Assembly: GCA_020073485.1 (NCBI GenBank)
Contig: JAIQFB010000019.1
Coordinates: 62,001 to 126,000 of the forward strand
Reading direction: 5' to 3'
Length of the DNA: 64,000 nucleotides
Source of the DNA: Terriglobia bacterium
GTDB taxonomy: Bacteria; Acidobacteriota; Terriglobia; Acidiferrales; UBA7541
The notes under the pieces: model-generated
Told to the model about the DNA's origin: nothing
The model's database searches: none
What the model saw: only the letters and a program-made list of their open reading frames with translations
Program-made: the position numbers and the translations under genes
Shown: positions 37,948 through 57,057 of the stretch, in pieces
Numbering within the stretch: the first letter of the stretch is position 1
Layout of the letters: the number at the start of each line of letters is the position of its first letter

Positions 37948-37970
37948 CAAGACCTGCTCCAAATCCATTT

Positions 37971-39644: not shown

Positions 39645-39796
39645 CGCGAGTCCCCCGTTTCTTTCCCCAGCTCCGCAATCGGAAGCGCGGCAAAAATGTG
39701 CGCAACCCGCTGCCGCGCGTTTGCGGGCGCAAATCCACCATTCAGCCGCAAGAGATACGTGCTGATTGGAATCCCGCTTGGTGTGTCCCCGGGCAA
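39641..39796 (-). pseudogene. Relic of a malto-oligosyltrehalose synthase (TreY-type) gene
   Basis: A 51-codon frame (TTG start at 39796, TGA at 39641-39643) begins with [14 protein letters not shown] near residue 9. This closely follows the TreY N-terminal block (I-P-x-S-T-Y-R-L-Q-L/F-N-x-G-F-T-F, then DAxxxVPYL). The following residues ([19 protein letters not shown]) have no GH13 catalytic region; the frame ends after LPIAEL, which resembles a TreY C-terminus. It looks as if about 700 codons were deleted internally, leaving both ends joined. Its stop overlaps the treS start, as expected for two genes once in one operon. A short stand-alone gene is the alternative. Confidence 0.5.
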
Positions 39797-40394: not shown

Positions 40395-41210
40395 GTGAAC
40401 CCAAACAAGGCATTATGGGAGAAAGGTGACTTTACCGAAATTGCCGCCTTCATGCGCCAATCGGGAGAAGCGGTCGTTCAGTCACTTGGACTTAAGCCGC
40501 CGCTGCGCGTTCTTGATCTCGGTTGTGGAGACGGCACTACGGCGATTCCCCTGGCCCGTTTGGGTGCCGATGTAGTTGGAATTGACATTGCCGCGAATCT
40601 GGTAGCCGCCGGGAATCAGCGAGCCGCGCAGGCAGGCCTAACGCGGCTGAAGTTTCAAGAGGGCGATGCGTGCAACTTACAAGGGGTCCCCGACCACACC
40701 TTCGATCTGACCATCTCCATTTTCGGCGCGATGTTTGCTCCCAAGCCCTTTGACGTAGCCAAGGAAATGGTCCGCGTCACGAAACCGGGCGGGCGCATCG
40801 TGATGGGCAATTGGATCCCCAACGATCCGACTTCCTTCGTGTCGCAACTTTTGAAGATCAGCTCAGCGTATACGCCTCCCCCTCCGGAAGGCTTCATCAG
40901 TCCGATGACCTGGGGCGTGGGCACCCATATCATCGAGCGATTCGGCCAGACTGGAATCCCGAAGGAGAAAGTATCCATGGTCCGGGATACGTTCCTGTTT
41001 GTGTCCCGAGACAAAACCCCGGCGCAGTTCATCGACTCATTTAGGCGATTCTACGGCCCGACCATGAACGCTTTCGACGCGGCTGAGAAGAACGGAAAAG
41101 CAGAGGAGCTCCGCGACCAGCTTGTGGAACTGGCGAATGCGGAAAATAAGAGCACGGACGGCAGCATTTCCATACCCGCGACCTTCCTTCGGGTGACGGT
41201 TGCCCTGTGA
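40395..41210 (+). CDS. Class I SAM-dependent methyltransferase (UbiE-like)
   Basis: 271 residues with motif I VLDLGCGDGTTAIPLARLG near residue 39, motif II VVGIDIAANLV, FQEGDACNL (motif III region), FDLTISIFGAMFAPKP (motif IV) and the post-motif block VTKPGGRIVMGNW. This is the methyltransferase-11/25 pattern used on small molecules such as quinones or lipids. The GTG start at 40395 has a perfect AAGGAGGAG 5 nt upstream, which settles it over the ATG at 40359. The DinB-like gene follows after 113 nt. Confidence 0.87.
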   Translation: MNPNKALWEKGDFTEIAAFMRQSGEAVVQSLGLKPPLRVLDLGCGDGTTAIPLARLGADVVGIDIAANLVAAGNQRAAQAGLTRLKFQEGDACNLQGVPDHTFDLTISIFGAMFAPKPFDVAKEMVRVTKPGGRIVMGNWIPNDPTSFVSQLLKISSAYTPPPPEGFISPMTWGVGTHIIERFGQTGIPKEKVSMVRDTFLFVSRDKTPAQFIDSFRRFYGPTMNAFDAAEKNGKAEELRDQLVELANAENKSTDGSISIPATFLRVTVAL

Positions 41211-41323
41211 GGACGATAGAAACAATTTGCCATCGTTGGAGCTGAGCCTGGATGAGTTCTCGCGGAATTAGCGAAAGCAGCCAACAACCACCGAAGCACA
41301 ATTTCTGACTCTAGGAGAAAAAA

Positions 41324-41806
41324 ATGAGCAACCGATCGGAAGCCCTTGCCGCGCGTCTCGAAGCCGGCGCAAAATCGCTCGCCGCATTTGCGGCCACGCT
41401 TTCCGGAGCGGAGTGGCAAACGCGCGTCCCCCATGACGGACGCAAAATCGGCGTCGTGGTGCATCACGTCGCCAGCGTTTACCCGATCGAGATCCAGCTC
41501 ACGCAGCTGCTGGCTTCCGGACAGCCGGTCGCCGGCGTGACCTGGGACGCCGTCCACACCATGAACCGAGACCACGCAAAAGAAAATGACGGCGTGACCA
41601 AGGAGGCCGCGCTCGCCCTGCTGGCAGCCAACAGCGCTGCTGCCGCTGCTGCCATACGCGCCCTCAGCGACGCGCAGCTGGACAGCGCCGCGCCCGTCTC
41701 CCTCAATTCCGATGCCCCACTCACCTGCCAGTTCCTGCTGGAGGATCATGCGGTGCGCCACAGTTACCACCACCTCGCGAAGATCAAGGCCGCGCTCGGC
41801 CGTTAG
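41324..41806 (+). CDS. DinB-like four-helix protein
   Basis: A 160-residue helical protein. The pattern VVHHVASV near residue 46 and the final DHAVRHSYHHLAKIKAAL (His near 142, 146, 149-150) give the three-His metal site of the DinB/YfiT superfamily. Members include thiol-dependent metal enzymes and proteins induced by stress; the specific role here is unknown. AGGAG lies 8 nt before the ATG. The gene stands alone, converging on dctA after 240 nt of sequence with no recognised feature. Confidence 0.75.
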   Translation: MSNRSEALAARLEAGAKSLAAFAATLSGAEWQTRVPHDGRKIGVVVHHVASVYPIEIQLTQLLASGQPVAGVTWDAVHTMNRDHAKENDGVTKEAALALLAANSAAAAAAIRALSDAQLDSAAPVSLNSDAPLTCQFLLEDHAVRHSYHHLAKIKAALGR

Positions 41807-42046
41807 CAGCGAATAGCTTTGCGCTCAGGCACTCCCTCGCTTTTCCGCGAATCAGGCGCCGCAATCGGGAATATGCAGGGTCAACCCGTCACGATTTCGC
41901 AAGTTGACGTCCCGCCCGGATGCGCCTACTTCCGTCGATCAGGTGGCCTCCTGGCAGGACTCTCCCTCGCACTGTGAGCGATCGCGAACTCGGCTGACTG
42001 TTCGTTCCGTTCCGCGAGGGCAGAGCCTTTCACCACGCCATGAATC

Positions 42047-43390
42047 CTAAAGTGCGGATGCTTGCGCGGTCTCTTCCGGACCGTTTTGCAGCTCTGATTG
42101 CAGGGTCTGCAAATCAACCGCCCGCTCCATGCGGCCAATCACGATGGTCGCGAGCGAGTTGCCCAATACGTTCACCGGCACAAAGGCGGACGACAGCAGG
42201 CTATGAACTCCGAGAATGAGTCCGACACTGGCGACGGGAACCACGCCCGTCGTCGAAAGCGTCGTCGCAAGAATGACGATCGCCGAACCGGCGACGCCGG
42301 CACCGCCTTTTGATGTAAACAACATTGTTGCCAAGAGCGCCAACTGCTGGCCAATCGTTAAATGAATTCCCACGGCCTGGGCGAGAAACACCGAGACCGT
42401 GGCCCAATACAGGCACGTCCCGTCGTGGTTGAAGGAGTACCCGGTCGGCAGCACCAGTGCGACGATGGATTCCTCCACCCCGAGGCGCCGCAGTTTGGCG
42501 AGTACGCTCGGAAACACGGATTCACCGGAACTGGTGCCGACGACGATCATCAGCTCGGCCGCGAAATACCGAATCAATCGCAGGATATTTACGCCCGCGG
42601 CGAAAGCGATCGGGGTCAGTACCAACGCGACAAAAAGCAAGCAGCACACGTAGAATTCCGAGACCAGTTTTCCCAGAGCCAGGAGCGAGGACACACCGAA
42701 TTTGCCGACCGTAAATGCGATAGCCCCGAACGCGCCGATCGGAGCGACGTACATCACAAACCCGATCATCTTGAACAACACCTGCATAATCGAGTGAATT
42801 ATGTCAACGAGAGGCTTGCCTTTCGATCCCAAGGCGAGCAATCCGAAGGCGAACATCAGGGAGAAGAACAGTACCGGAATGACTTCGCCCTCGGAGAAGG
42901 CTCCCACGGCGCTTGCAGGCACCAGGTTGAGCAAAAACTGGCCGAAAGTGACTGCTTTTGCAGGCGCCTTCACGCCGCTTTCGGCGATGGCCTTCAAATC
43001 CACATGCATGCCCGCGCCGGGCGCCCAGAAGTTCACGAGAAGCAAGGCAAGGATGAGAGCGATCGTCGTCACCACTTCAAAGTAAATCAGCGATTTAATC
43101 GCAACACGACCGACCTTCTTCGCTTCGCCAACACTGGCGATGCCGTGGACCACCGTGCAGAAAATGATCGGCGCCACGAGCATTCGCACGAGTTTAATGA
43201 ACAGGTCGCCAAGAGGCTTCCACGCATCGGCGCGTTCGGGCCACATGTGGCCGACAAATACGCCCAGCACCATCGCCACCAAGATCTGTGCGGAGAGATG
43301 TTTGTACCAGGAGCGTGGACGTGGATTCGCGGTGACTTTGCTGACTTCGGTAACCTCCGGTTTTGCGGCTGGCGTTTGCATGGTGGGCAT
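42047..43390 (-). CDS. dctA: C4-dicarboxylate:cation symporter DctA
   Basis: 447 residues. It matches DctA along its length: QILVAMVLGVFVGHMWPE (TM1), PLGDLFIKLVRMLVAPIIFCTVVHGI near residue 60 (split here for length), VNFWAPGAGMHVD, the reentrant loop with GTSSGESVFPSVL, LPTGYSFNHDGTCLY (TM7 ion site) and LTSKGGAGVAGSA (HP2). It imports succinate, fumarate, malate or similar acids with cations. It begins immediately after the stop of the upstream gene (TAG-ATG), so it is the third gene of an operon that could first break a ring compound down and then take up its acids. Confidence 0.93.
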   Translation of the reverse strand: MPTMQTPAAKPEVTEVSKVTANPRPRSWYKHLSAQILVAMVLGVFVGHMWPERADAWKPLGDLFIKLVRMLVAPIIFCTVVHGIASVGEAKKVGRVAIKSLIYFEVVTTIALILALLLVNFWAPGAGMHVDLKAIAESGVKAPAKAVTFGQFLLNLVPASAVGAFSEGEVIPVLFFSLMFAFGLLALGSKGKPLVDIIHSIMQVLFKMIGFVMYVAPIGAFGAIAFTVGKFGVSSLLALGKLVSEFYVCCLLFVALVLTPIAFAAGVNILRLIRYFAAELMIVVGTSSGESVFPSVLAKLRRLGVEESIVALVLPTGYSFNHDGTCLYWATVSVFLAQAVGIHLTIGQQLALLATMLFTSKGGAGVAGSAIVILATTLSTTGVVPVASVGLILGVHSLLSSAFVPVNVLGNSLATIVIGRMERAVDLQTLQSELQNGPEETAQASAL

Positions 43391-44281
43391 CTAGTCGAGC
43401 GAGCGCGTGACGCCGTTAAATAATTCGTCAACCGAGAAGCGGCGCGGGATCAGACCCTGACATTCGGAATATCGAATGATCGTTTCCAGCGACTCGCGCA
43501 CCGCCTCGACGCCGAATCGCAGTGCTCCCATTCCTTTTGAGGGACCGGCGGCCGTGCTTTGCTTCAGCATGCGGTAAACCTCGCGGACAACGTCCGGGCG
43601 GGCCTGCGTGATCGATTCCTTTATCACCATCATATGGTTAATCGGAACGCCACCATGTTTTTCGGCCCAACGCGCCGCAACTTCCGCCGCATCCGGAATC
43701 AGCGGCTTCAGTGGCGTGCCCTCGGGATTTTCGCTTCCGAAAATTGCCGCGTCGATTTCGCCATCGAGCAGCATCTGCAAGAGCTGCTTGCCTTCCGGCG
43801 CGCGCTGCACCCAGGGCGGATCGCTGTACTCGGCAACGTGCGGATCTTCGAAGGTGATCCACTGAATGGACCGGAAGTCGACGCCATAGTCTTCTTGCAG
43901 GAAACCTCGAACCCACGCGCCAGTCGTTTGCGTGTATGCCCGGACACCTACTCTGCGGCCGTTCAGGTCCCCGGGATCCAGATGACCGCGTTCCGGGTTG
44001 AAAAAGATCGTGTGATGCTGGCCGCGCGCGACGGCGACAGCAGGCATCAGAATATACGGCTTGCCGTACGCCTTCGCTTGCAAGAATGTGACGATGGCAA
44101 GCTCGCCCAGATCGAACTTCTGCTCCCGCACCAGAGCTTTGAACGCCTTGTTCGCGGTCTTCACGTCAGCAAAAACAAAATTTACAAGCGGCGATTGCAG
44201 CTCCCCGCTTCTCAAGGCCCTGGTGTGCGGGTTCAACGCCAGCAGAGTCTGCAGAGTCACCGGGAGCCGTGTTTCAGGCAT
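43391..44281 (-). CDS. 4,5-dihydroxyphthalate decarboxylase-like protein (PBP2 fold)
   Basis: 296 residues of the family related to phthalate-pathway 4,5-dihydroxyphthalate decarboxylase, which has the fold of periplasmic-binding protein type 2. Recognised parts are ELAIVTFLQAKAYGKPYILMPA near residue 57, LNGRRVGVRAYTQTTGAWVRG near 105 and LLDGEIDAAIFGS near 167. No signal peptide is visible, in keeping with an enzyme rather than a transporter subunit. The annotation by homology is loose: relatives act on varied aromatic acids. It lies in one operon between the amidohydrolase and dctA. Confidence 0.78.
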   Translation of the reverse strand: MPETRLPVTLQTLLALNPHTRALRSGELQSPLVNFVFADVKTANKAFKALVREQKFDLGELAIVTFLQAKAYGKPYILMPAVAVARGQHHTIFFNPERGHLDPGDLNGRRVGVRAYTQTTGAWVRGFLQEDYGVDFRSIQWITFEDPHVAEYSDPPWVQRAPEGKQLLQMLLDGEIDAAIFGSENPEGTPLKPLIPDAAEVAARWAEKHGGVPINHMMVIKESITQARPDVVREVYRMLKQSTAAGPSKGMGALRFGVEAVRESLETIIRYSECQGLIPRRFSVDELFNGVTRSLD

Positions 44282-44291
44282 CGATTTCCTT

Positions 44292-45140
44292 CTACTTTCC
44301 GGCCAGCACGGGATAAAGAGTCAGCGCCGTTCTGGCGAAGATCCAATAGCGATCTTCCGCCGATAGTACCGACAATGCCGCTTGGGAAACCTTCAGCAAT
44401 TCCGGGAGCGTTCCTTCCGATGCCGGATAGTTCGATCCCCAGGCGATCCGCGAAGCGCCGAATTTCGATACGAGGAACGGAAAGAAGGTCGCGTGAGTGG
44501 CCTTCCCCTTTTGCGCTTCCGCTACGGTGCGCGGGGTCAGTTTCAAGTACAGATTCCTGTAATCCGCCAGTCTAAAGACATCGCTCGCGCCGGCATAAGG
44601 AGGTCCGTCCGACAAGGTCGGCTTTGCCAAATGATCCAAAATGACGCGGACATTCTGAAAGCGCTCCAGCATGTGGGTGAGCTGCGGAAGCGCCTTCACC
44701 GTCATTTGCATGCACACGGGGATTCCGAGTTCGCTCGCGCACTCCCAGGCCGGGAACGATCGCGGGTCGTCAACCCAGTCCGCCTGATTTGGCATTGTGC
44801 TGCCTGCCGTGAACAAACGCATTCCGGTCAGGTTGCGGCCTACCCAATATCGGATCTTGTCCGGAGCGTCAGGTGCGAGAACATCCACGGAAAAAACGCC
44901 CGTGAAACGGTTTGGGTGGGCGGCCACAGCATCGGCAATATACGAATTATCGTGACCGTAACAAGTGGAAGCCTGTACCAAAGCCGACTTCGCAATGCCC
45001 GCCTGGTCCATGGCGGCAATCATTTGCTCCATGCTTACGGGTCTTTCGCGCGACCAGTCGGATTTGTGGCCGCCGACCGGAGCGTTCGGATAGCGCCCCG
45101 TATCGGTGCTGATCACATGAGGATGGATGTCGATCGTCAT
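44292..45140 (-). CDS. Amidohydrolase-2 family lactonase/decarboxylase-like enzyme
   Basis: A 282-residue TIM-barrel hydrolase. It has TIDIHPHVIS (HxH), LVQASTCYGHDNSYI, GMRLFTAG, CMQMTVKALPQL, RVILDHLAKPTLSDGP (His near 165) and RIAWGSNYPASEG (barrel strand 8, with Asn in place of the usual Asp near 240). This is closest to PDC-lactone hydrolase (LigI)-like members that open or decarboxylate aromatic breakdown products. First gene of the set with the decarboxylase-like gene and dctA. Confidence 0.82.
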   Translation of the reverse strand: MTIDIHPHVISTDTGRYPNAPVGGHKSDWSRERPVSMEQMIAAMDQAGIAKSALVQASTCYGHDNSYIADAVAAHPNRFTGVFSVDVLAPDAPDKIRYWVGRNLTGMRLFTAGSTMPNQADWVDDPRSFPAWECASELGIPVCMQMTVKALPQLTHMLERFQNVRVILDHLAKPTLSDGPPYAGASDVFRLADYRNLYLKLTPRTVAEAQKGKATHATFFPFLVSKFGASRIAWGSNYPASEGTLPELLKVSQAALSVLSAEDRYWIFARTALTLYPVLAGK

Positions 45141-46080
45141 GGCCAGATTAGGCTGTCATTTCCTCCAAACCTCAGGCGGCACACCCTTCTCTCGCGACGC
45201 GGGCCGAAAGACATTGTAGCTGGTGTAGTCTTCTTTGCGTTGTCCGTGCTACCAATTGCCAGCGGCTTGACTAGCGGATTTCCGGAATGCCGAAAACGGC
45301 GGACGGGAAATCGAACCTACCCGCCCCATCGGTTCGCGCACGCCCGGCGGGCTAGGATAAGCGGAGACAACGCCGCCCGTCAATCCGGCATTGGGTTTCT
45401 GACGAATCAAACCTCGATAAGGTGCATGCCCTTTGAGCATGGCTCCGTGTGCGGTGCCGGAACGGCGGATGTCCACCTGTTCGCGACGTCACAATTTCCC
45501 GAACGGATCGAGAACGAGACTGCGAAGACGGCGGTAACTCTCACTGCGCGTCCGCAGTTCGCCAGGCTATGGTTGCATCGCCTGCCCCTAACAAGAGCAT
45601 GCTTCGGGGTTGGGAACCGTTGCGTGGGGTGGTATGCTCACCTTCGCGATTCTAATTCTCCTCGATGCAAGGTACGTCTTGCCTGGAGTATTCCGCAAGA
45701 TGATCCCAGTAGATAGCGCGAGATTCTTCCCCCCACGGCTGACGAGCCCATTACTTGCATTGGCGATGCGCTGCACTCCGGATTTCTATTTGAAAAGCGT
45801 CGGGGACAGCCTAAGTGCTTGGAAGCGTGACTAAAACATATTCCCTACAGGTGAGAAATATTCGCGCGATTGCCCAGTAGGGTCCGTTAATACGCGGAAG
45901 CCTGCTTGGCTAGGTTGACTTCATGCCGCCGCGTTCCTGTTCGCCAGGGTATCGGAAGGAAGCTGCAGGTAGTTTCCGCCCGCTTTCGGCCCGGATTTCC
46001 ACTTGCTTATCGTATTCAATTAGGTAAACGCGCACAGAAATTCTACTCGGGTGCATAAGCGATCCAGCATACTGACGCTG
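45141..46080. other. Large intergenic stretch, no supported gene
   Basis: About 940 bases. Short frames exist (plus 45610-45834; minus 45249-45476), but none has family motifs. At 45300-45325 the minus strand reads GGGTAGGTTCGATTTCCC, which resembles a tRNA T-arm; the stem does not pair in tRNA register and no other arms are present. The region should hold the promoter of the amidohydrolase operon near 45150-45250. Confidence 0.45.
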
Positions 46081-46929
46081 ATGATCACGACCCGTTCAAG
46101 CGTGAAGCGTTGGAGCACTGCCATTCTGTTCGCTGGCATAGTTCTCCTGGGTGGCTGCACGCGCATGTATCGCATGTATCAAAGCTGGTATGTGAGCCGC
46201 TACGACGGTGAAATTCGCCGCGCCGGGCAAGCTATCGCAGCCTCCAGGAACACTACACAACGCTCCGCAGCGTACGCCGACCGGGCTGACGCCTATGCCG
46301 AAAAGGCTCGGTACTCGCGACTCATGAAGCTCATCGCAGGCGAGGAATACAACAAACTCTTCGATTTGGCCGTTCAGGATTACAACCAGGCGATCGCGTT
46401 GGACCCGGACAACGCGGAGATGTATTACCGCCGGGGCAATGCTTACTATTCTCGTGCCGGCCTGGACATGATTTACGAGCCCCACACGTCTGTTTTTCTC
46501 GCTCCGGCCAAAGCTGATTTTTCCCGAGTAGTAGAAAAGAATCCCAAAGATATCATGGCCCTCGACATGCTTGGCTTGACCGATGGTTCGAGGGGAGATT
46601 GGACGCAAGCCATTGCTGATTTCGAACAGGAAGCCGCACTGAAGCCGAGGATGCGCTTCCGTGTTTCCGACGCCTACTGCAATCGCGGCTCCAGTTACCC
46701 CGGAGAGAAGTACGATCTGGCCATTTCGGATTTGAACCAGGCGATCCAAATTCGCGGCACGTCTGATCCTTGTGAGTGTGAGCCTTACAATCCGTTGCTG
46801 GCGATCTATGTCAAACAGACACGAGAATACGACAAGGCGCGAGAGGTGGTCGCGCTTGCGCAGCGTTCGGGAAAGTGGATTGCCCCCGAATATCTCGAGC
46901 AACTAAAAGCGTCGAACGCTAACCGATGA
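46081..46929 (+). CDS. TPR lipoprotein
   Basis: 282 residues from ATG 46081 (or 292 from GTG 46051). The lipobox IVLLGGC makes Cys26 the lipidated residue. Four or five TPR-like helix pairs follow: YNQAIALDPDNAEMYYRRGNAYY near 102-125, DFSRVVEKNPKDIMALDMLGLTD near 145, and LAISDLNQAIQIRGT near 220 (given in parts). Such envelope lipoproteins hold multiprotein complexes together. There is no strong ribosome site for either start; the later one gives the shorter, more typical signal. It is the last chromosomal-looking gene before the tRNA fragment. Confidence 0.8.
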   Translation: MITTRSSVKRWSTAILFAGIVLLGGCTRMYRMYQSWYVSRYDGEIRRAGQAIAASRNTTQRSAAYADRADAYAEKARYSRLMKLIAGEEYNKLFDLAVQDYNQAIALDPDNAEMYYRRGNAYYSRAGLDMIYEPHTSVFLAPAKADFSRVVEKNPKDIMALDMLGLTDGSRGDWTQAIADFEQEAALKPRMRFRVSDAYCNRGSSYPGEKYDLAISDLNQAIQIRGTSDPCECEPYNPLLAIYVKQTREYDKAREVVALAQRSGKWIAPEYLEQLKASNANR

Positions 46930-47186
46930 CTCTTGATGTGCATCTCTTAATCTTCCTTCCGGTCACAAGATCCGCGCCAGGACAAGTCAACTCCCGAAAA
47001 CGGCGTTGTGGGAAGCAAAGGAAGAGGTTCTGGGCGTATCGTCGGCAAATCGGAAGTAACTGGACGGACGAACGCACGGAGCGCTGCACGTCACTAAGGG
47101 ACACCTGCGCATGAGCGTGATTCGACAGACGCGCAGAGGAAGATCACTTTGCGAAGCGCACCTTGCCGCAGCGGATTATCCTATTA

Positions 47187-47413
47187 ACAGGTGAAGAATT
47201 ACAGGTGAAGTTTCTCTGCGATTCCGAAGAAAACTCTCTAAAGTATTGAAAAGAATGGTAGGCCCGTGGAGACTCGAACTCCAGACCTCTACCGTGTCAA
47301 AGGGGCGTGAATATGAACTTCCAATAACTTAGAAGGTGTGGTGGACCGCCTAAGTACGTGTAAGTACGGCCAAGCCGAACTTCTTACAGGTGAAATTACA
47401 GGTGAAGAAGTTC
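47187..47413. repeat. Paired ACAGGTGAAG repeats flanking the tRNA fragment
   Basis: ACAGGTGAAG occurs at 47187-47196 and 47201-47210, and again (first copy ACAGGTGAAA) at 47386-47395 and 47398-47407, giving one pair on each side of the tRNA fragment. The right-hand pair sits inside a perfect 9-bp inverted repeat, GAACTTCTT (47377-47385) and AAGAAGTTC (47405-47413). A further direct repeat, TAAGTACG, occurs at 47351 and 47361. Paired short repeats flanking a core resemble integrase arm-type sites, but no integrase is in the window. Confidence 0.6.
47256..47301 (-). pseudogene. 3' fragment of tRNA-Val(GAC); probable island attachment site
   Basis: Read on the minus strand from 47301 to 47256, the sequence is the 3' 46 nt of a tRNA. 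It comprises an anticodon loop TTGACAC (anticodon GAC, Val), the 3' anticodon strand GGTAG, a variable loop, a perfect T-arm TGGAG-TTCGAGT-CTCCA, and the acceptor 3' strand CGGGCCT followed by A-CCA. Upstream of the loop the sequence no longer pairs (CCCCT instead of CTACC), and no D-arm or 5' acceptor strand exists, so the gene is not functional. The break at the anticodon loop is the classic crossover place for tyrosine integrases. By orientation, the chromosome is to the left and the inserted element to the right. Confidence 0.75.
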
Positions 47414-47516
47414 TTGGATAAGCCCAGCAAGGTCCGTGCGAAGGGTAGAGCCTGCAAGATGTCGCAGTGGACTGAGGACACCTATCCGGTTACGCTTTGA
47501 AAGTTTCTAACGAGAA

Positions 47517-48707
47517 CTACTCGACCTTTACCGTAGGGGGCATTCCCTTCAACCAAACAACCTTGGCACCCGCTTGTGCAAACTGATCGTAATTCGTAGC
47601 GCGCGTCGGAATTATTGCGATGGTCTGAAAGTTCACATCCCGCGCGGCGGCGCGCTCAATAACACCGCGCAATCCGGAGTTGTCTAAGTGAGTCGCCATT
47701 TCGTCTAAGATCAAGACCGTCGGCATGTACTTTGCGGAGAATTGTGCAAGTGTCACAGCGATCTCGATAAGAGCGTGAGTAAGTTCGCCGGATGATACCT
47801 GTCCTAGCGATAAGTCAAAATCGTTTCCCCTCAGTCTGAGCATCACCTGAAGCTTTTTCTTTTCGCGTTGAAGGGTAAGCCTCTGAATAAGCTCGTTTTG
47901 GGGTTCGGTCGCTTCTACTAGCTCTGCCATTATTGCGGGAGGGAGCCCAAATACCGCTGAGAGTCGCCCAAGGTCGTTCATGCGCCCCCAATTCCGAATC
48001 TGGCGAAAATCCTTGGGCACTATGAATCGAATACTGAAGGGTTGAAATGGAACTGGTCTGTCATCAATCATATAGTGAATAAATCGATCTTCTTCGATAC
48101 GAAATCCGACAGTCCGTTCTACTGGATCAAAGTACGTAATCTGAACTCTAAGCGGGTTATTAGTGTCAACGGGACTGAGCCAACGTTGAAGCTGTCTCTC
48201 GTCGCCGATTCCCGCAGCCCACTGCCAAAGCGCAGTTTTCCCGGTTTCGTTGTTTCCGGTGATGAGCGTAACTTTGCCAAACTCAAGAGCCGCAGGCGTT
48301 GAGAATAGAGGGCCGCCTTTGATGATCATGCGGTGGAACCAACCTAAGGGTGCGACAACACCGCGCTGTTCTCTCGCAATCCTGGATTCGTGCAGCCTCT
48401 TGTATTCGAATAGGAGCGGAGCAGGAAACTGCTCACCTCGATTGTTATCTATGAGCTTCGCATGTTCGCTACAAAGCCAGATTGCATTTTCGGGACCCGA
48501 TAGATCGTATGGAGTCAGATCTCCCCATCCTCTAGGGCCACCTTTTGAGGCGCTGTAAATATGAGCGGCAACTCCAGTCCGGGAGACTTCCCTTAGTGCA
48601 GGGCCTGGCCCCAGGGTGACCCGTTCGCATCCTGGATAGCTGCACTTGTACGCGCTGCGTGAAGCAACCAACTCTTTAACAGACTCTGTGAATTCTATTC
48701 GTGCCAT
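47517..48707 (-). CDS. HNH nuclease - ABC-type ATPase single-chain protein (defence candidate)
   Basis: 396 residues. The N-terminal HNH-type domain has Cys22/Cys27 (YKCSYPGC), AAHIYSASKGGPRG (His49) and ENAIWLCSEHAKLID (Asn74, Cys79, His82), giving the H-N-H set plus zinc cysteines. The SMC/RecF-like ATPase has Walker A GNNETGKT (151-158), signature SSGE (305-308) and Walker B VLILDE (331-336) followed by ATHLD (D-loop). Septu defence systems use a separate ATPase (PtuA) and HNH nuclease (PtuB); here both activities are in one short chain, nuclease first. Third gene of a three-gene operon, 72 nt after the membrane gene. The DNA is visibly more AT-rich than the chromosome to the left. Confidence 0.82.
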   Translation of the reverse strand: MARIEFTESVKELVASRSAYKCSYPGCERVTLGPGPALREVSRTGVAAHIYSASKGGPRGWGDLTPYDLSGPENAIWLCSEHAKLIDNNRGEQFPAPLLFEYKRLHESRIAREQRGVVAPLGWFHRMIIKGGPLFSTPAALEFGKVTLITGNNETGKTALWQWAAGIGDERQLQRWLSPVDTNNPLRVQITYFDPVERTVGFRIEEDRFIHYMIDDRPVPFQPFSIRFIVPKDFRQIRNWGRMNDLGRLSAVFGLPPAIMAELVEATEPQNELIQRLTLQREKKKLQVMLRLRGNDFDLSLGQVSSGELTHALIEIAVTLAQFSAKYMPTVLILDEMATHLDNSGLRGVIERAAARDVNFQTIAIIPTRATNYDQFAQAGAKVVWLKGMPPTVKVE

Positions 48708-48779
48708 GGTGTCGGATGAGCGATATCTAGGTGTGGCAAGTCACAGTTACTGCCTCTGTTCCTTTAAGATTTGGGCCGC

Positions 48780-49406
48780 CTACTCGGGCGGGTCCGTCGG
48801 ATGCCCAACACCGTAGGTAATGCCTGTTGTGTTAACTGTAGCGCCGGGTGAGTTGTCCAGGAACTCTTTATAGCTTTTGATGCGGTTGCTTCTTAGCCAC
48901 CACAACAAAACGAACGACAGAAGGATAAAAAGGTAGGGCAGACTCCGGGGAAATTCAAAGTTCCCGACTGGTTCATGAATACCCGGCAACACCCGAGCAA
49001 CGAAGTGATAGAAAGTAAAGAGCAGTGCGATTCCTATGCCCAAAGCGTACTGTATCTTAAGATGTGTCAACATCGCGGTTTTAGCGCGATGCTTTCCAAA
49101 ATAATAGTGGATATCCTTCAGGTCGGTACCGCTCAGGAATTGGCGTTCGATGTTCGCGATAATGACCAAGTTCCGGTTATACCAATACGATGCATCGTAC
49201 AGGTGCGCGATCAGCCAAGCGGAAAGCATTATCATCAGCGAACATGCGTAGTCTATCGGGATTATATTTTTTTCCACCAGCGCAAAGACCGCAAAGGCAC
49301 CGACGACGACACCAACCGACTGCCAAACGACGAGAATATGCGTGTCGATGTCGTTGAACATCTGGTCGTACATCCTTAGCAAAAATTCTTTTCTATAGTC
49401 TTCCAT
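48780..49406 (-). CDS. Four-helix membrane protein of unknown function
   Basis: 208 residues with membrane helices at about 24-44, 50-70, 117-137 and 156-172. The 45-residue cytoplasmic loop between helices 2 and 3 is rich in charged and aromatic residues (SYWYNRNL, IERQFLSG, IHYYFGKHR). A short helix (YDQMFNDIDTHI) precedes the first span. I recall similar unnamed proteins, but know no function. The layout of two hairpins with a soluble loop suits an effector or sensor in a defence operon. It overlaps the end of the upstream gene by 14 nt. Confidence 0.8.
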   Translation of the reverse strand: MEDYRKEFLLRMYDQMFNDIDTHILVVWQSVGVVVGAFAVFALVEKNIIPIDYACSLMIMLSAWLIAHLYDASYWYNRNLVIIANIERQFLSGTDLKDIHYYFGKHRAKTAMLTHLKIQYALGIGIALLFTFYHFVARVLPGIHEPVGNFEFPRSLPYLFILLSFVLLWWLRSNRIKSYKEFLDNSPGATVNTTGITYGVGHPTDPPE

Positions 49407-50034
49407 GACTTTCGTAACTGCTCCAAAGCCTGTTGATATTCCTTATCGATTCGCGAATGCACCGTTCGTAACCGCCTGCCGGATGTGGTCTGAACGTCTC
49501 CCCATCGAAGTAATCCCCAAATGCAGCATCAAGAGTGAACCGATTGCAGTCCATGCTCACCACGGGCATGATTTCAGCCAGCCTCCTTTGGATATCAGGA
49601 CGCCCTCCGAGCAGATGGACAGAACGTTTGAAGAATCTAGGGGATATCACAGTGCCACCATAACGCGTTGGAACGCTGTACCCAAGAATAAATTTCTTCG
49701 GAATGTGGCTATCGAGCTTATTCTTCAAGCTAGGATGTTTGGGCACAATGATGACTCGGTCGCAATAGAGACTCAGTTCCCAAGCCTGATCCAGAGTCTT
49801 GGTTAGTTTTCGGGGGTCATCAATATCGAGTGCCACAGTAATTACTGGTCTTGTTGCCTTTGCAGCTTTCAGGTGCCGTTCGAACGAATAGTTCTTCCAT
49901 TCAATGTCTAGAAATCCAACTCTGTCACATCTCCGAACGTCGCGCAGATTCGTATAGCGTGCGCCGGGAAGCCATCCGTACCTTCGCGCTATCCTCAAAA
50001 CGCGATAGCTGTGCGCTACGAATTTGAGGACCAT
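49393..50034 (-). CDS. TIM-barrel-like protein (DUF6610-type; weak TGT/DpdA resemblance)
   Basis: 213 residues, first gene of the island operon. Repeating strand-helix units end in polar loops: GFLDIEWKNY (40-49), PVITVALDI (63-71), RVIIVPKH (93-100), FILGYSVPTRYGG (115-127), HLLGGRPDIQRRL (140-152) and VVSMDCNRFTLDAAFGDYFDG (158-178). The order of a VPTR-like turn, HLLGG and an acidic S-x-D strand recalls tRNA-guanine transglycosylases and the DNA-modifying DpdA, but the zinc site of TGT is not seen. I believe it belongs with DUF6610-type proteins. If related to DpdA it might act on nucleobases; this is inference. Confidence 0.7.
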   Translation of the reverse strand: MVLKFVAHSYRVLRIARRYGWLPGARYTNLRDVRRCDRVGFLDIEWKNYSFERHLKAAKATRPVITVALDIDDPRKLTKTLDQAWELSLYCDRVIIVPKHPSLKNKLDSHIPKKFILGYSVPTRYGGTVISPRFFKRSVHLLGGRPDIQRRLAEIMPVVSMDCNRFTLDAAFGDYFDGETFRPHPAGGYERCIRESIRNINRLWSSYESHGRL

Positions 50035-50181
50035 TCCCTACGCACCCTCATAAATTCTGAAACGTGCACATCTTCATCAAGCCTTGAACTGAAGTGCCCC
50101 AATAATAGCAACCTCAGGGTGGTTTACTTCTTGGAGACTACTACGTATGGTTACGCCAACCCTTAAAGGAGGGACGTGATC

Positions 50182-50457
50182 ATGAAGAAAACCACGAGGA
50201 AAGTGACGAAGGCAAAGGCTGCGGTCAAGGGGCCGAAAAACACAGCCAAAGCCCCGAAGGGAATCCGCGCAAAGGCAAGCCGCCGCACTGCGGAAGGCAA
50301 GTTCACCAAGATCATCTTCAACCAAGTTGGCGGAAAGGAATGCCACCGCTTCGCAGCGATGACATGGAAGGAGCGCGATGGCTTCATGGCGAAGCCCGAG
50401 AACGCCGTTGTCAGGGAACGTTACGAAAAGCACATGGCCTCGGTCGGGGTCAAGTGA
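50182..50457 (+). CDS. Small basic protein, function unknown
   Basis: 91 residues. The first 40 are Lys/Ala-rich (histone-tail-like); the rest is a compact domain containing IFNQVGGKECHRFAAMTWKE and ending in a helix (VVRERYEKHMASVG). ATG 50182 is chosen over GTG 50176 because AGGAGG (50167-50172) is then 9 nt away. It is divergent from the island operon (147-nt shared control region) and overlaps the next start by 4 nt (GTGA), so the two small genes are coupled. Similar pairs occur on plasmids and islands; no function is known to me. Confidence 0.68.
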   Translation: MKKTTRKVTKAKAAVKGPKNTAKAPKGIRAKASRRTAEGKFTKIIFNQVGGKECHRFAAMTWKERDGFMAKPENAVVRERYEKHMASVGVK

Positions 50458-50702
50458 ACAGGTTCAATCCTGGTCAGGTGGTGGCGACGCCCGGTGCCCT
50501 CGCAGCTTTGGAGGTATCGGGCGAATCGCTCTTTGATTACCTCACGCGGCACCTGTCGGGCGACTGGGGAGACGTAAACGCCGAGGACACTCAAGAAAAC
50601 GAACTCAGCCTCAAGCATAGTTGGCGGCTCTTGTCGGCGTACACGCTGAAGAGTGGGACCACGATTTGGGTGATTACGGAGGCTGACCGTTCGTCTACCT
50701 GA
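50454..50702 (+). CDS. Plasmid-related small protein, C-terminus cut by in-frame TGA
   Basis: 82 residues from GTG 50454: FNPGQVVATPGALAALE, FDYLTRHLSGDWGDV, ENELSLKHSWRLLSAYTLK, WVITEADRSST. This is a widespread short protein on plasmids and mobile islands, usually annotated as plasmid-related. Homologues as I remember them continue directly with a block like (C/T)xLLPEEY. Here the codon after RSST is TGA (50700-50702), and the next in-frame codons are ILLPEEYW, then open to TAG at 50862-50864. So a nonsense change (for example TGC to TGA) has removed a conserved end, unless TGA is read through. Confidence 0.75.
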   Translation: MNRFNPGQVVATPGALAALEVSGESLFDYLTRHLSGDWGDVNAEDTQENELSLKHSWRLLSAYTLKSGTTIWVITEADRSST

Positions 50703-51067
50703 ATTTTGTTGCCAGAAGAATATTGGCGTGGGTTCAATGAGCCAAAGCGGGCATTGACGCCAAACATTTCCAAGAGGCGCTCAAGGCAAAGTCCTAATGA
50801 GAGCGAGACTGATCAGGCCCTTGGTCGCAAGATGGCTGAGGGCCTGTTTTATTTTCACATCTAGTAGTAGCGCGTTATGCATCGGAGTTGTTCAGAGTCC
50901 GCCACGACGGTCAGTTTCTGAACTATGCAACGGACAGATTGCTTCCAATTCTCGATCGGCCCATCGCTGTAGGTAGCTCGGTTTCGTCAGGCGATTTCTT
51001 CGAAGGTAAGCGGTGTTTCCGGCAGCGCCGATTTGAGCTCCTGCAAAACATCCGTGCTTCTTCCGCA

Positions 51068-52747
51068 TCAAACCGTTCCCACAAGATGACGTTTCGAGAC
51101 TTCCGGGTAGACCGCGCTTGCACGGTTCAACCCATCAGCGATGCTATTGCACATATTGTCGAGTCCGATGTGCTGCTCAAACTCAGCCTGATGCATGAGT
51201 CTCGTAGGTTGTTCCTTGGCCCCGCAAAGAATGAGTTCTCGTCCCGATTCGTGCACCTTGTCCGCTAAGTTCTCTAATGCCTGGAGACCGGTGGAATCGA
51301 TCGCGGTCATATTTCGCAATCTCAGAATCAGGATCGGGGGCAGGCTGGACAACCGCGATGTGATCTCCTCGATCTTGTCGGTTGCTCCGAACAGGAAAGG
51401 CCCATGAATTCTAAAGATGGCGACGTATGAAGGGATTACCTTGTGCTGTAGGATGTGAACATGTCCTTCACGAACATATTCTTCAGATACTTCCGAGACC
51501 GTGGTGGTTTGCGTGACTTTCCTAATGAAAACCAGCACCGCGAGAATCATACCTGCTTCCACGGCTATTGTCAGATCCGCAAATACCGTCAATAGAAAAG
51601 TGACGAGCCATGTCGCAATCTCCATTCGGGAGAGTTTCAAGAGCTCAGGGATTTCCCCCCACTCACCCATGTTGTAAGAGACAACGAGAAGAATTGCTGC
51701 CAGGACAGACAACGGGATGAATCTTGCCAGGGGAGCGGCGAAGACCACGATGACCAAGAGAGTTAGGGCATGAATCATTCCAGATACCGGAGTTTTTGCC
51801 CCGGAACGGATGTTGGTGGCCGTTCTCGCGATTGCCCCTGTCGCTGGAAGCCCTCCAAACAGCGGAGAAAGAATGTTCGCGACGCCTTGTCCCATAAGTT
51901 CCACGTTTGGATTGTGCTTGTCGCCGCTCATGCGATCGGAGACCACCGCGGACATCAACGATTCGATTGCGCCTAGCATGGCGACTGTGATTGCCGGCGA
52001 AATCAAAGGCCGGAGTAAGTCCACGCGAAAGTGCGGCACCTTAAGCGTTGGTAGCCCTGCGGGAATACCTCCAAAACGCGTGCCAATCGTTTCAACCGGT
52101 AGTTTCAACAGCATGACCGCCGCCGTGCCAACAAAGAGGGCGACGATGTAACCCGGAACTCGTTTTACGTAACGCATGGAAACAATAATCACGGCAAGGG
52201 CTATAATCGCCAGGCCTGTCTCCAATGGCGAGAACGAAGAGAAATTGTGAGCAACCGTCTGCATGCGATCCAGAAATTCACCGGGAACCTTCTCGATTTT
52301 TAGCCCAAAGAAATCCTTGATTTGAGTGCTGGCGATAAGAACCGCGATACCGTTCGTAAAACCGACGACAACCGGGCGCGGCATGAATTTGACGGCCGTG
52401 CCCAAACCCGTTGCGCCCAAAATCAACAGGAGGACACCGGCCATCAGGGTGCACATGAACAGTCCGTCCATGCCATACTTCGCGACGATGCCGAAGACGA
52501 CAACAACGAACGCTCCGGTTGGACCACCAATCTGCGTGGAAGATCCTCCCAAAGCGGAGATCGCAAAGCCCGCGACGATGGCGCAGTACAGGCCTGCTTG
52601 CGGGGGCACGCCCGAAGCAATGGCGAAGGCCATCGCGAGCGGCAGTGCGACGAAACCAACGGTTATGCCTGATAGAAGGTCCGCCACGAACAGGCGCTTC
52701 GAGTAGGACTTCAGGCATAGCACGGATTTGGGCAGCCAGTTATTCAT
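51068..52747 (-). CDS. SulP family anion transporter with STAS domain
   Basis: 559 residues. The UraA-type 7+7 helix fold begins FVADLLSGITVGFVALPLAMAFAIASGV (SulP signature). TM3 has the GGPTGAFVVVV motif, and the second repeat has GLPATGAIARTATNI. The C-terminal STAS domain (about 430-545) has LILRLRNMTAIDSTGLQALE, including the Asp-Ser-Thr-Gly core. SulP proteins carry sulfate, bicarbonate, nitrate or similar ions, often with sodium or protons. It lies behind an ArsR-type regulator on the same strand, with an operator-like dyad in between, and back-to-back with the Ehr-like complex. Bicarbonate or sulfate are both possible. Confidence 0.93.
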   Translation of the reverse strand: MNNWLPKSVLCLKSYSKRLFVADLLSGITVGFVALPLAMAFAIASGVPPQAGLYCAIVAGFAISALGGSSTQIGGPTGAFVVVVFGIVAKYGMDGLFMCTLMAGVLLLILGATGLGTAVKFMPRPVVVGFTNGIAVLIASTQIKDFFGLKIEKVPGEFLDRMQTVAHNFSSFSPLETGLAIIALAVIIVSMRYVKRVPGYIVALFVGTAAVMLLKLPVETIGTRFGGIPAGLPTLKVPHFRVDLLRPLISPAITVAMLGAIESLMSAVVSDRMSGDKHNPNVELMGQGVANILSPLFGGLPATGAIARTATNIRSGAKTPVSGMIHALTLLVIVVFAAPLARFIPLSVLAAILLVVSYNMGEWGEIPELLKLSRMEIATWLVTFLLTVFADLTIAVEAGMILAVLVFIRKVTQTTTVSEVSEEYVREGHVHILQHKVIPSYVAIFRIHGPFLFGATDKIEEITSRLSSLPPILILRLRNMTAIDSTGLQALENLADKVHESGRELILCGAKEQPTRLMHQAEFEQHIGLDNMCNSIADGLNRASAVYPEVSKRHLVGTV

Positions 52748-52832
52748 TGTGTTTTTTCAACATTTATTCCTCTCAGGCCTCCTCCCGTGGAGTCTCGAAC
52801 AGCTTTTCGATTAAAGCTACTGCGTCATCGGC

Positions 52833-52852
52833 ATATGCGAATATCTGCATAT
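52833..52852. promoter_or_regulatory. ArsR-type operator upstream of the SulP gene
   Basis: ATATGCGAATATCTGCATAT is a dyad with perfect 6-bp ends and central ATAT (16 of 20 positions symmetric). It lies between the regulator stop and the SulP start, 86 nt before the latter. It shares the core TGCGAATAT with the palindrome in front of the regulator gene, so the regulator probably controls both promoters. Confidence 0.68.
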
Positions 52853-52875
52853 CTTTGACAAAAAAATAACAATCT

Positions 52876-53205
52876 CTACGACGCTGCCTCCATTTGCTGC
52901 AGCATGTCCCTTACACCGACCAAATGATTGTTGAAAATGTTCTTCGCTACATCGAGAAGCTTGAAAATGGTCCGGTCGGAGACGGAGTAATACACGTTGC
53001 TGCCGGATTTCCGGCCGACCACAATATTGCGCGCTCGCAGAATTGCAAGCTGCTGTGAGACGTTCGCAGGTTCAATTTTCAGAGTTGCGCTGAGCTCATT
53101 CACGCCTTTTTCGCCATCGCGAAGGCAATCGAGGATGCCAATTCGGATCGGATGTGCGAGGGCCTTGAAAAACTCGGCTTTGAAGTTGGCGATCTGCTGT
53201 GGCAT
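52876..53205 (-). CDS. ArsR/SmtB-family transcriptional regulator
   Basis: A 109-residue winged-helix protein. The helices read FFKALAHPIRIGILDCLRDGEKGVNELSATL, then the recognition helix ANVSQQLAILRARNIV and the wing VVGRKSGSNVYYSVSD (given in parts). The metal-binding ELCVCDL box of classic ArsR/SmtB is replaced by GVNELSATL and only one Cys remains (LDCLRDG), so classic metal or two-Cys redox sensing is unlikely. ATG 53205 has AGAGGA about 5 nt upstream and fits the family N-terminus better than ATG 53226. It likely represses itself, the SulP gene and perhaps the divergent complex through the two matching dyads. Confidence 0.9.
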   Translation of the reverse strand: MPQQIANFKAEFFKALAHPIRIGILDCLRDGEKGVNELSATLKIEPANVSQQLAILRARNIVVGRKSGSNVYYSVSDRTIFKLLDVAKNIFNNHLVGVRDMLQQMEAAS

Positions 53206-53237
53206 CTGATTCCTCTGTACATACATACTCTAATCTG

Positions 53238-53251
53238 CGAATATTCGCATG
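53238..53251. promoter_or_regulatory. ArsR-type operator in the regulator/Ehr divergent promoter
   Basis: TGCGAATATTCGCA is a perfect 14-bp palindrome, 32 nt upstream of the regulator start and 120 nt upstream of the first gene of the divergent complex. Nine consecutive bases (TGCGAATAT) recur at 52836-52844 in the dyad before SulP. This is typical of autoregulation by an ArsR-type repressor. Confidence 0.72.
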
Positions 53252-53370
53252 TCAAGCAGGGTTATGGTTTGGCGCGCAGGGATGTTGCCATCGTAACGGA
53301 CGATCCCACGGAAAATTGTGAGACGAAGTTATCCGAAAGTTCTATCATCAGGTCGTCCTGAGCACGACAC

Positions 53371-55416
53371 ATGAACACGTTTCCGGTTGGCACTCTCTTC
53401 GCGCTTAGCCTTACGGCCTACTTGGGCGGCGCGTTTGCTTGTCTCGCGAGTTGGCAAAAGCCGACGCTCTGCCGCTACATCTGTTGCGGCAGCGCTTTGG
53501 CAGGCGCCGTCTTCGGCGGCCTTGCCGCAGTACTCGGCATTCTGCAAGGAACGCCGCTCCTCTGGTCGTTCTCATCGGGAATTCCACTCTTCACGTACAG
53601 CTTTGAGTACGATGCTCTCGCTGGTTTCTTCAACTTGACCTTGGCGATTCTGGCAGGCGCGGTTTCCCTTTACTCCTTCAGCTACCTAAGAGAATTCGAA
53701 GGTAAGAGGAACATCGGTTTCTTCGGCTTCTTATTCCTTCTCTTGCTTCTCAGCTTGATTGTCGTTTTTACCGCTGCCAATGCCTTCCTGTTCTTGATGG
53801 GGTGGGAAGTGATGGCACTGGTTGCCTACGGGCTGGTCACGTTTTACCACGAAGATCGGGAGACCAGGCGAGCCGGCTTGCTCTACATCGTCATGGCTCA
53901 CATCGATGCCGGGTGCTTGCTCCTCGGTTTCGCTCTATTGATGCAGGTCAGCGGCAGCGCGGACTTCGCGAGCTTTCGCACTGCCGCAGCGCAATTGTCC
54001 AGTGGCCAGCAAGCCACCGCATTTGTTTTTTTCTTCCTCGGCTTTGGCATCAAGGCGGGCATCATTCCGTTCCACATCTGGCTCCCCGCTGCGCACCCGG
54101 TCGCGCCCAGCAATATCTCGGCGCTGCTTTCCGGAATCGTGCTCAAGGCAGGCATCTATGGCATGGCGCGCATTTTTCTGGGTGGCCTGGGAGTGCTGCC
54201 ATCGTGGGCCGGTTTGCTGGTGCTCATCGTAGGTGTGGCCTCTGCTGTTCTCGGTGTCTTATATGCCTTGATGGAGCATGACATCAAACGATTACTGGCC
54301 TACCACAGTATTGAGAATATCGGGATCATTCTCATCGGCCTTGGCGCTACATTAGTTTTCCGCGCTGCTGGACATCCGCAGCTCGCGGCAGTAGCTCTGA
54401 TCGCCGCGATATTTCACACTCTGAATCACGCGATCTTCAAGTGTCTTTTGTTCCTGGGAGCCGGGTCGGTGCTCCACTCGACGGGGACGCGAAACATGGA
54501 GGAAATGGGCGGGCTGATTCGTCCGATGCCAGTGACAGCTTTCTGTTTTCTCATCGGGGCGGTCGCCATCTCCGGGCTTCCCCCGCTGAACGGATTTGTT
54601 AGCGAGTGGCTGACCTACCAGAGTCTCTTGGCCGGTTATGGTGCGACCGGAGGGTTGACGAGAATCCTATTTCCGCTCGCGGGATCCATGCTCGCATTGA
54701 CGGGAGCCTTAGCCGCCGCTTGTTTTGTAAAGGCCTTCGCGATTACGTTCCTTGCGCTGCCGCGCGGCGCCGAGTCCCGCCAAGTGCATGAGGCACCTCG
54801 GTCCATGCTGGTGGGCATGGGCTGGCTGACAGTGGCCTGTCTGGCCCTCGGCCTAGGAGCTACCTGGTTCCTCCCGGTCTTCGACACGCTGACTGAGCAA
54901 CTTCTCGGACAACGAGTTGGCACAAATCTGATTAGCGGGCATGGATTGGTGCTCTCTGCGGGAATGCCCCATGGGGGTACGGTATCCACGGCGGTCATTG
55001 GATTTGGGCTCGTGATTTTGCTGATTCCTTCTGTTCTCCTGGTATCGAACGGGGCGAGACGGTTTGCGTGGAAGCGGGGACCAACATGGGACTGCGGCTT
55101 GCCTGGCCTCTCGGAAGAGAATGAATATACGGCTACGGCATTTTCAAAACCATTGCGGATGATATTCTCCGCGCTGTATCAACCGCGCCGTGAGATTCAA
55201 GCCGTTTTCGATGTGTCCCCCTATTTTCCGAAGGAGATCCGTTTCGAGAGTGAGATCGAACCGACATTCGAGAAGCGGCTGTATATTCCGCTAAGAGATC
55301 TCCTGCTGCGGTTCGCTATCAGGATGCGACCCATTCAGGCCGGGAGCATTCATGCCTATTTGGCATACATTTTTGTAACCCTCATCTTGCTATTGCTGTT
55401 TGGAGTTCGCCCGTGA
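53371..55416 (+). CDS. Ehr-like complex, HyfB-type (Mrp/NuoL-like) membrane subunit
   Basis: 681 residues with 14 to 16 membrane helices. It has the proton-pump family blocks: FLFLMGWEVMALVAYGLVTF (key Glu in TM5), GIKAGIIPFHIWLPAAHPVAPSNISALLSG near residue 227 (Lys in TM7 and the conserved HxWLPxAHP), LLAYHSIENIGIILIGLG, and LNHAIFKCLLFLGAGSV (Lys in TM12, split). The C-terminal 120 residues extend like HyfB/HycC. First gene of a six-gene operon; the stop overlaps the next start by GTGA. No strong ribosome site is seen before ATG 53371. Confidence 0.9.
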   Translation: MNTFPVGTLFALSLTAYLGGAFACLASWQKPTLCRYICCGSALAGAVFGGLAAVLGILQGTPLLWSFSSGIPLFTYSFEYDALAGFFNLTLAILAGAVSLYSFSYLREFEGKRNIGFFGFLFLLLLLSLIVVFTAANAFLFLMGWEVMALVAYGLVTFYHEDRETRRAGLLYIVMAHIDAGCLLLGFALLMQVSGSADFASFRTAAAQLSSGQQATAFVFFFLGFGIKAGIIPFHIWLPAAHPVAPSNISALLSGIVLKAGIYGMARIFLGGLGVLPSWAGLLVLIVGVASAVLGVLYALMEHDIKRLLAYHSIENIGIILIGLGATLVFRAAGHPQLAAVALIAAIFHTLNHAIFKCLLFLGAGSVLHSTGTRNMEEMGGLIRPMPVTAFCFLIGAVAISGLPPLNGFVSEWLTYQSLLAGYGATGGLTRILFPLAGSMLALTGALAAACFVKAFAITFLALPRGAESRQVHEAPRSMLVGMGWLTVACLALGLGATWFLPVFDTLTEQLLGQRVGTNLISGHGLVLSAGMPHGGTVSTAVIGFGLVILLIPSVLLVSNGARRFAWKRGPTWDCGLPGLSEENEYTATAFSKPLRMIFSALYQPRREIQAVFDVSPYFPKEIRFESEIEPTFEKRLYIPLRDLLLRFAIRMRPIQAGSIHAYLAYIFVTLILLLLFGVRP

Positions 55417-56354: not shown

Positions 56355-56362
56355 GGCTTTAC

Positions 56363-57049: not shown

Positions 57050-57057
57050 GCCGACGT

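Follow-up and report, generated by a model that had tools for sequence, protein, structure and literature searches.

A tRNA-Val(GAC) half gene in a Terriglobia bacterium as the probable attachment core of a tandem island array

The marine tycheposons are elements that combine a tyrosine recombinase with a tRNA arrangement. In Dehalococcoides, tandem islands lie downstream of the single ssrA RNA gene, and a short direct repeat of its 3' end delimits each of them; 15 of the 31 islands have no integration module and are suggested to be cis-mobilizable, and the cargo is metabolic, according to the available part of the source (PMC3146451). CIMEs keep attL and attR without integration or transfer genes and adjoin elements that have different integrases and the same target; the accessible text also describes internal att sites that are chimeric, formed between elements whose integrases differ greatly (PMC5704250). 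Islander assigns 2083 of its 3919 islands to the anticodon-centred attachment class and, in the part of the article at hand, lists only four tandems of three or more from 2168 genomes (PMC4383910). For acidobacteria, our literature search found no report of tandem tRNA-Val island arrays; candidate islands with tRNA genes are described for Solibacter, and in the accessible portion of that article these arrays are not among them (PMC3174227).

Here we describe a half tRNA gene within a 64,000-nucleotide stretch of DNA (the window), which corresponds to positions 62001-126000 of contig C19 in the genome of a Terriglobia bacterium (G000; 5.05 Mb in 46 contigs).

The half tRNA gene and its flanking repeats

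The first-pass annotation had claimed a 46-nt 3' fragment of tRNA-Val(GAC) at 47256-47301 that breaks off at the anticodon loop. Alignment with the intact tRNA-Val(GAC) of the genome, which ARAGORN placed at C45:90684-90760 in the same orientation, confirmed the fragment, although its tRNA part ends at 47300 and not at 47301, and also the break, as the match stops at the border between the loop and the 5' strand of the stem. The fragment and its surroundings consist of the following features.

47256..47300, minus strand: tRNA-Val(GAC) 3' half, anticodon loop to CCA, att core; T-stem allele TGGAG/CTCCA
47187..47209, plus strand: left twin repeat ACAGGTGAA-5nt-ACAGGTGAA, putative integrase arms, right end of the left-lying element
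47386..47406, plus strand: right twin repeat ACAGGTGAA-3nt-ACAGGTGAA, putative arms, left end of the right-lying element
47180..47415, plus strand: complete att-type module, 92% identical over 104 nt to C45:21931-22034; parts common to the relatives G001-G004

The fragment retains the encoded CCA, the acceptor 3' strand, the T-arm and the anticodon loop, and 41 of its 45 nt are identical to the intact 3' half (91%). All four mismatches lie in the T-stem, where TGGAG/CTCCA replaces TGCGG/CCGCA with five pairs intact. Because all of them keep pairing, the fragment derives from a different, pairing-competent tRNA-Val allele. Of the 52 distinct fragment sites among the loci compared, 43 keep all five T-stem pairs, a count obtained with a search pattern that fixed part of the stem beforehand; such pairing is expected of fragments that were each, at one time, part of a functional tRNA as its 3' half.

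In well matched fragments of this genome and of others, the break falls at the edge of the 7-nt anticodon loop, and the displaced tRNA-Val 5' halves of G001, G011, and G032 begin in the same 7-nt loop in which the 3' fragments end. Taken together, the 3' fragments and displaced 5' halves show the anticodon-loop crossover that characterizes Islander-type tRNA-gene islands. The half tRNA gene is a true scar left by DNA insertion. Lone tRNA-Val 5' halves that end at the anticodon loop, without a 3' half, lie at L087:4912-4950, L090:3218-3256 and L078:10626-10664 (G011, G032, and G001, respectively); some elements seem to displace this other half of the same tRNA-Val. In G001 (120 contigs, 89% complete), only 3' and 5' halves and no intact tRNA-Val(GAC) are among the matches listed, which may reflect assembly incompleteness.

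A genome-wide search gave five ACAGGTGAA twin pairs, none further than 100 nt from a tRNA-Val fragment: two pairs flank the window site, two flank a fragment at C45:21986, and one lies to the right of another fragment at C45:33345. The reversed-pattern control gave 0 matches genome-wide, and no such twins occurred in 100 shuffles of the window. The distances to the core are the same at the window site and at C45:21986, namely 68 and 54 nt for the starts of the left arms and 86 and 98 nt for those of the right arms; at C45:33345, the right arms again lie 86 and 98 nt after the core. Twin repeats at a fixed distance around a core have the look of tyrosine integrase arm sites. The window core, with arm-type repeats at fixed spacing on both sides, is thus laid out like the attP of a tyrosine integrase, and the repeats probably bind an integrase. 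Since arms lie on both sides of the core, an element would end on the left, too.

A second arm family consists of GGTACGG twins. These are found on the left side of three sites (C45:33345, C36:250927 and the intact tRNA), and two more copies, at C45:29349 and C45:88315, have no fragment next to them. A third family, ACGTCACAA, is present on C36 and in relatives. Overall, a twin repeat score of at least 9 was reached on at least one side of 27 of the 52 distinct fragment sites (12 left, 21 right, 6 both), compared with 37 of 1040 single stretches in the control, while a strong twin repeat is missing at 25 sites.

Among five same-genus genomes, the att module is matched beyond the tRNA core in G001-G004, and in G005 the match is limited to the core of its intact tRNA-Val, which has a degenerate GGTACGG-type flank. 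The fragment pattern was found in 49 stretches of named genome records labelled Acidobacteria, Acidobacteriaceae, Acidobacteriota, Terriglobia or Candidatus Acidiferrales/Acidiferrum, all of them metagenome-assembled genomes. Neither the fragment pattern nor the right arm pair matched the viral contigs searched, nor did the att module match the plasmid records searched.

Further fragments, boundaries and content of the segments

Six tRNA-Val 3' fragments were found in the genome, one in the window, two on C45 and three on C36, together with a single intact tRNA-Val(GAC) copy at C45:90684.

C45:21986 and C45:33345, orientation as the window fragment: tRNA-Val 3' fragments (pattern/alignment search)
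C36:241505, 250927 and 262690: tRNA-Val 3' fragments, of which the outer two share only about 33 nt

On C45, the two fragments precede the intact tRNA and are oriented, as it is, like the window fragment, and the positions 21986, 33345, and 90684 show the Islander-type arrangement of an intact tRNA gene with same-orientation 3' fragments on its 3' side. The window fragment agrees with this arrangement in its orientation, but its contig differs from that of the intact tRNA (C19 versus C45). To the right of the intact gene, C45:91457-119937 begins with a class II ribonucleotide reductase gene and is collinear with G005:C140 (70-97% at the amino acid level); tRNA-Val therefore sits at the chromosomal backbone. 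The 8.2 kb to the left of the G005 tRNA-Val have no counterpart in those stretches of G000 that were read. The tRNA-Val neighbourhood varies across the family, with a right flank common only to G000 and G005. On C36, the three fragments (C36:241505-262735) bound two recombinase-free segments of 9.4 and 11.7 kb and have in common a third right-hand module type (TTCC.GAGCGATTTGGGAAC-like).

The DNA to the left of the window fragment falls into two parts.

27300..41806, no strand: chromosomal backbone, largely collinear with G005:C166:35395-22542 (81-88% nt), gap at about 39646-41313
41807..47254, no strand: variable segment left of the scar with a dicarboxylate symporter, an NMT1-like protein, an unknown gene and a TPR gene; left arms at its right end

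This side had been taken for ordinary chromosomal genes, which is true of 27300-41806 but not of the 5.4 kb that follow. We regard 41807-47254 as variable because collinearity stops at about 41,806 and because G003 and G005 diverge from G000, and from each other, after the same gene (window 41324-41806). Positions 42047-45716 have relatives on another G005 contig, C33, and the rest of the segment is matched in the five same-genus genomes only by the att flank (from 47163) and one 36-nt stretch. No left att was found for the segment, which is probably a decayed element that has lost its left end. The expected AT-richness of the right side was borne out, as the GC content is 0.600 in 1-41806, 0.569 in 41807-47254 and 0.538 in 47301-64000; within the array it ranges from 0.538 to 0.586, compared with 0.600 and 0.605 in the two backbones.

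To the right of the scar, the window contains the following.

47301..64000, no strand: island DNA, continues to C19:131777
47517..48707, minus strand: defence-like protein, N-terminal similarity to endonuclease-effector, SAVED_HNH and SduA (DUF4263) models, weak SMC_N near the C-terminus
49393..50034, minus strand: DUF6610 protein
51068..52747, minus strand: SulP-family permease with STAS domain
53371..61019, plus strand: complex I / hydrogenase-4-like gene run (Proton_antipo_M, NADHdh, Oxidored_q2, Complex1_49kDa, Oxidored_q6)
61682..64000, minus strand: SLFN_AlbA_2 protein, 1152 aa, weak nSTAND similarity, extends past the window

The 22.5 kb right of the scar thus hold a defence-like nuclease/ATPase, the DUF6610 protein, the SulP permease, the run at 53371-61019, which we infer to be complex I/hydrogenase-4-like as a whole, a Schlafen-type protein, a small resolvase and a porin. 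Of the defence-type and plasmid-type genes announced for this side, the former are present, but the latter were not found in the window part of the island, where cargo for transport and energy metabolism prevails.

Elsewhere, the cargo of the fragment-to-fragment segments consists of metabolic, regulatory, surface or defence genes. Two kdp sets with regulators lie in C45:1-21985; at C45:4742-19047 (L009), inside the presumed island, kdpA/kdpB/kdpC is present as two sets in close vicinity to a pair of KdpD sensor genes. A cluster at C45:75691-83444 (L012/L013) encodes a primase (Prim-Pol and D5_N), an amino acid:DNA transferase (ADDT) with AAA_18, a Tet/JBP-type oxygenase and a tyrosine integrase, which suggests a module of phage or satellite origin with genes for DNA hypermodification. 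A tRNA-Cys(GCA) gene (C45:59316-59390; L011:19316-19390) adjoins an integrase gene inside the array. We rejected it as a sign of backbone, as any match to it was found in only 7 of 31 genomes (own included) and none in G005; because G005 and most relatives have no close match, it is probably carried by an element. We also rejected a three-gene run at a similar position in elements of G003 and G001 as a recombination module and assign it to the cargo, because Pfam gave TPR, HEAT, and glycosyltransferase for the G003 set. Relaxase and T4SS families were absent among the ORFs given to Pfam, which comprised the larger ORFs and not all of them.

Genome-wide, we obtained 16 Phage_integrase matches, 15 of them over the cut-off, with two on C45 (60510 and 82776) and none on C19 or C36. 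The two integrase genes of C45 are these.

C45:59955-61118: integrase gene
C45:82224-83444: integrase gene

Twelve complete segments lie between two tRNA-Val sites (four in this genome, two each in G001, G033, and G008, one each in G003 and the named record L185) and have both attL and attR, as CIMEs do; only one end of the window's own right-hand element is on the contig. In 10 of the 12, we detected no tyrosine or serine recombinase, which agrees with CIMEs in the lack of integration genes; segment C of this genome and one segment of G033 do bear recombinases. Since the tyrosine search used an HMM built from 15 integrases of this genome and the serine search two protein queries, very divergent recombinases could be missed. 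The same search found no recombinase in C45:1-21985 and in the left segment (41807-47254). The integrase by which Islander-type islands are recognized is present in segment C and was not found in 47301-C19:131777, in C45:1-21985 or in segments B, D, and E. The open segment right of the window scar has a small serine resolvase, and related small resolvase-family serine recombinases were seen in or near arrays at L008:7271-7897, C45:56289-56870, C45:64952-65491 and G001:C56:975-1517. At 11 of 78 tRNA-Val sites, the adjoining 1.5 kb on one side or on both showed similarity to integrases (E<0.01). Two of the 11 sites share one hit, some hits are only remnants of 22-59 residues, and none of the sites is from this genome, which fits decay.

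Segments B and C on C45 have unlike ends, with ACAGGTGAA on the left and GGTACGG on the right. The orphan GGTACGG twins inside them (29349 in B, 88315 in C) align, without a core, with the right half-site of G001:C58:825, at scores of 32.5 and 37.5 versus shuffle maxima of 19.5 and 22.5; with the repeats removed, the alignments are within the shuffle maxima (10.5 versus 18.5 and 19.5 versus 21.0). We infer that B and C may each consist of two elements fused through loss of the junction core.

A tandem array and competing explanations

Our results indicate that the window fragment is very probably an attachment-junction core in a tandem (accretion) array, in which the tRNA-Val(GAC) 3' half serves as attB. 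This interpretation is based on the single orientation, the fixed arm geometry, the exclusive pairing of ACAGGTGAA twins with fragments, the foreign-looking cargo and the recombinase-free segments, although the unlike ends of B and C are not expected from one integrase. In such an array, a tyrosine integrase would cross over inside the 7-nt anticodon loop, and the incoming element would bring its own 45-nt tRNA 3' half with an arm pair (twin direct repeats) on either side. On integration, the new half would complete the tRNA and the older half would be displaced outward, and repeated rounds would yield a chain of fragment, cargo, fragment, cargo, and intact tRNA. Integrase loss would leave CIME-like units. 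The work may have been done by the integrases C45:59955-61118 or C45:82224-83444, or by others now lost, and the recombinase-free segments would be decayed CIME-like elements.

It is possible, though we consider it doubtful, that C19 received a piece of a former array (the fragment, its arms, and some cargo) through a rearrangement or when scattered att modules recombined with each other, whereby the link to tRNA-Val was lost. C36 likewise bears fragments and has no intact tRNA-Val in the 59.8 kb read, the right-hand neighbours of tRNA-Val differ between genera and even within the genus, and no overlap was found between the contig ends of C19 and C45. However, an ortholog of window 37971-39644 lies on the tRNA-Val contig of G007; it has the same orientation, and the 48 kb that separate it from tRNA-Val include other C19 genes. 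The orientation of all C19 and C45 fragments is also consistent. The G007 arrangement makes a link between C19 and C45 plausible but rearranged, and from the sequence data C19 may adjoin C45. Nevertheless, one simple array cannot be assumed, because the two contigs do not overlap and C36 has a second set of fragments. An intact tRNA-Val(GAC) with an integrase had been predicted to the right of the window: the gene is there in the same orientation, with two integrase genes within about 30 kb on the same contig, but this contig is C45, whose ends show no overlap with those of C19. It starts with a 28-nt palindrome (C45:1-28; TCCACTTGGGGCAATTGCCCCAAGTGGA), which is perhaps the end of a mobile element that broke the assembly.

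Rather unlikely is an explanation in which the recombinase-free segments are not decayed but regularly moved in trans by integrases encoded elsewhere in the genome, like integrase-less integron cassettes. Many of the segments without a detected recombinase do keep well conserved att modules, and these modules are common within the genus while the cargo differs. Yet the integrase remnants at several relatives' sites point to decay and the orphan half-sites inside two segments to decay and fusion, and neither a circle nor an empty site was seen.

We regard as improbable a single element that has its left (distal) end at 47256 and spans the contig gap to C45, with ordinary chromosome on the left. 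The first-pass annotation had proposed such a left end, with the inserted DNA right of 47302. Several observations would agree with it: the T-stem allele of the window recurs in a distal fragment of G003 (98% identity to the window over 55 nt), as expected of an ancestral 3' half displaced outward, GC drops most right of 47256, and no further fragment occurs in C19:2001-131777, so that the island DNA right of the scar reaches the contig end (window position 69777) without a second one. The right side indeed looks foreign, but foreign or variable DNA is present on the left from about 41,806 as well. Element-type arms lie 68 and 54 nt left of the core, from 47187 on, in a flank that is 92% identical to that of C45:21986, the collinearity with G005 ends 5.4 kb further left, and C45 contains more of the six fragments. 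As the left flank carries an element end and the backbone ends at about 41,806, position 47256 is not a simple left end; judged by its sequence, the window fragment is an internal att junction between two elements.

Finally, a chance match, or a tRNA-Val pseudogene that was complete before its 5' half was lost, can practically be dismissed even though the fragment is incomplete and ARAGORN called no tRNA in the window, given that the best window match has 4 mismatches in 45 nt while the best of 50 mononucleotide shuffles has 16, that ACAGGTGAA pairs occur only beside fragments (control 0), and that the anticodon-loop break recurs in well matched fragments of several genomes with arms at fixed distances.

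Relation to described systems and meaning of the array

The tandem array proposed here resembles the Dehalococcoides ssrA islands in that tandem islands lie at one RNA gene with repeats of its 3' end, units without an integration module and metabolic cargo. According to the text available, it differs in that the ssrA system involves tmRNA, a crossover in the T-loop, a 20 bp repeat and a large serine recombinase, whereas the present array involves tRNA-Val with its anticodon loop as the crossover region, a repeat of 45 nt, arms made of twin repeats, and integrases of the tyrosine type nearby (PMC3146451). With CIMEs, the segments have in common that attL and attR are kept, that no integration genes were detected in most of them, that the target is shared and that internal att sites are chimeric; the accessible part of the source reports excision or cis-mobilisation for some CIMEs, whereas the present segments are known from sequence alone (PMC5704250). 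The intact tDNA with a displaced same-orientation fragment of the anticodon-centred class corresponds to Islander tDNA islands; since Islander, in the portion at hand, demands an integrase per island, most segments described here would be rejected (PMC4383910). CALINs, which are arrays of integron cassettes lacking an integrase, likewise consist of cargo between recurring recombination sites and have no recombinase of their own nearby, but their sites are attC, as far as the available text describes them, whereas here tRNA halves with integrase-type arms bound complete units of 4-12 kb, and one of 57 kb (PMC11389934). Overall, the array illustrates well a type of genomic hotspot that is already known, and not a new mechanism; what is new is the host and the well resolved att anatomy.

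A broader and rather speculative idea, which we hold to be improbable, is that the tRNA-Val(GAC) of Candidatus Acidiferrales-type acidobacteria might be a cassette port, at which many recombinase-free units of 2-12 kb, each with a tRNA half and arms of at least three families (ACAGGTGAA, GGTACGGA, ACGTCACAA), would enter, fuse and be rearranged through the action in trans of several integrases that are unrelated but all cut the same anticodon loop. If this were true, one tRNA gene would be a shared docking site for otherwise non-mobile genes.

As a tandem array, the locus would represent a recurrent entry point for foreign genes in uncultivated soil acidobacteria. The signature of a tRNA-Val half with twin repeats finds islands that integrase-based finders would reject, and with these arrays one can ask if islands that lack a recombinase are dead remnants or instead are mobilized in trans.
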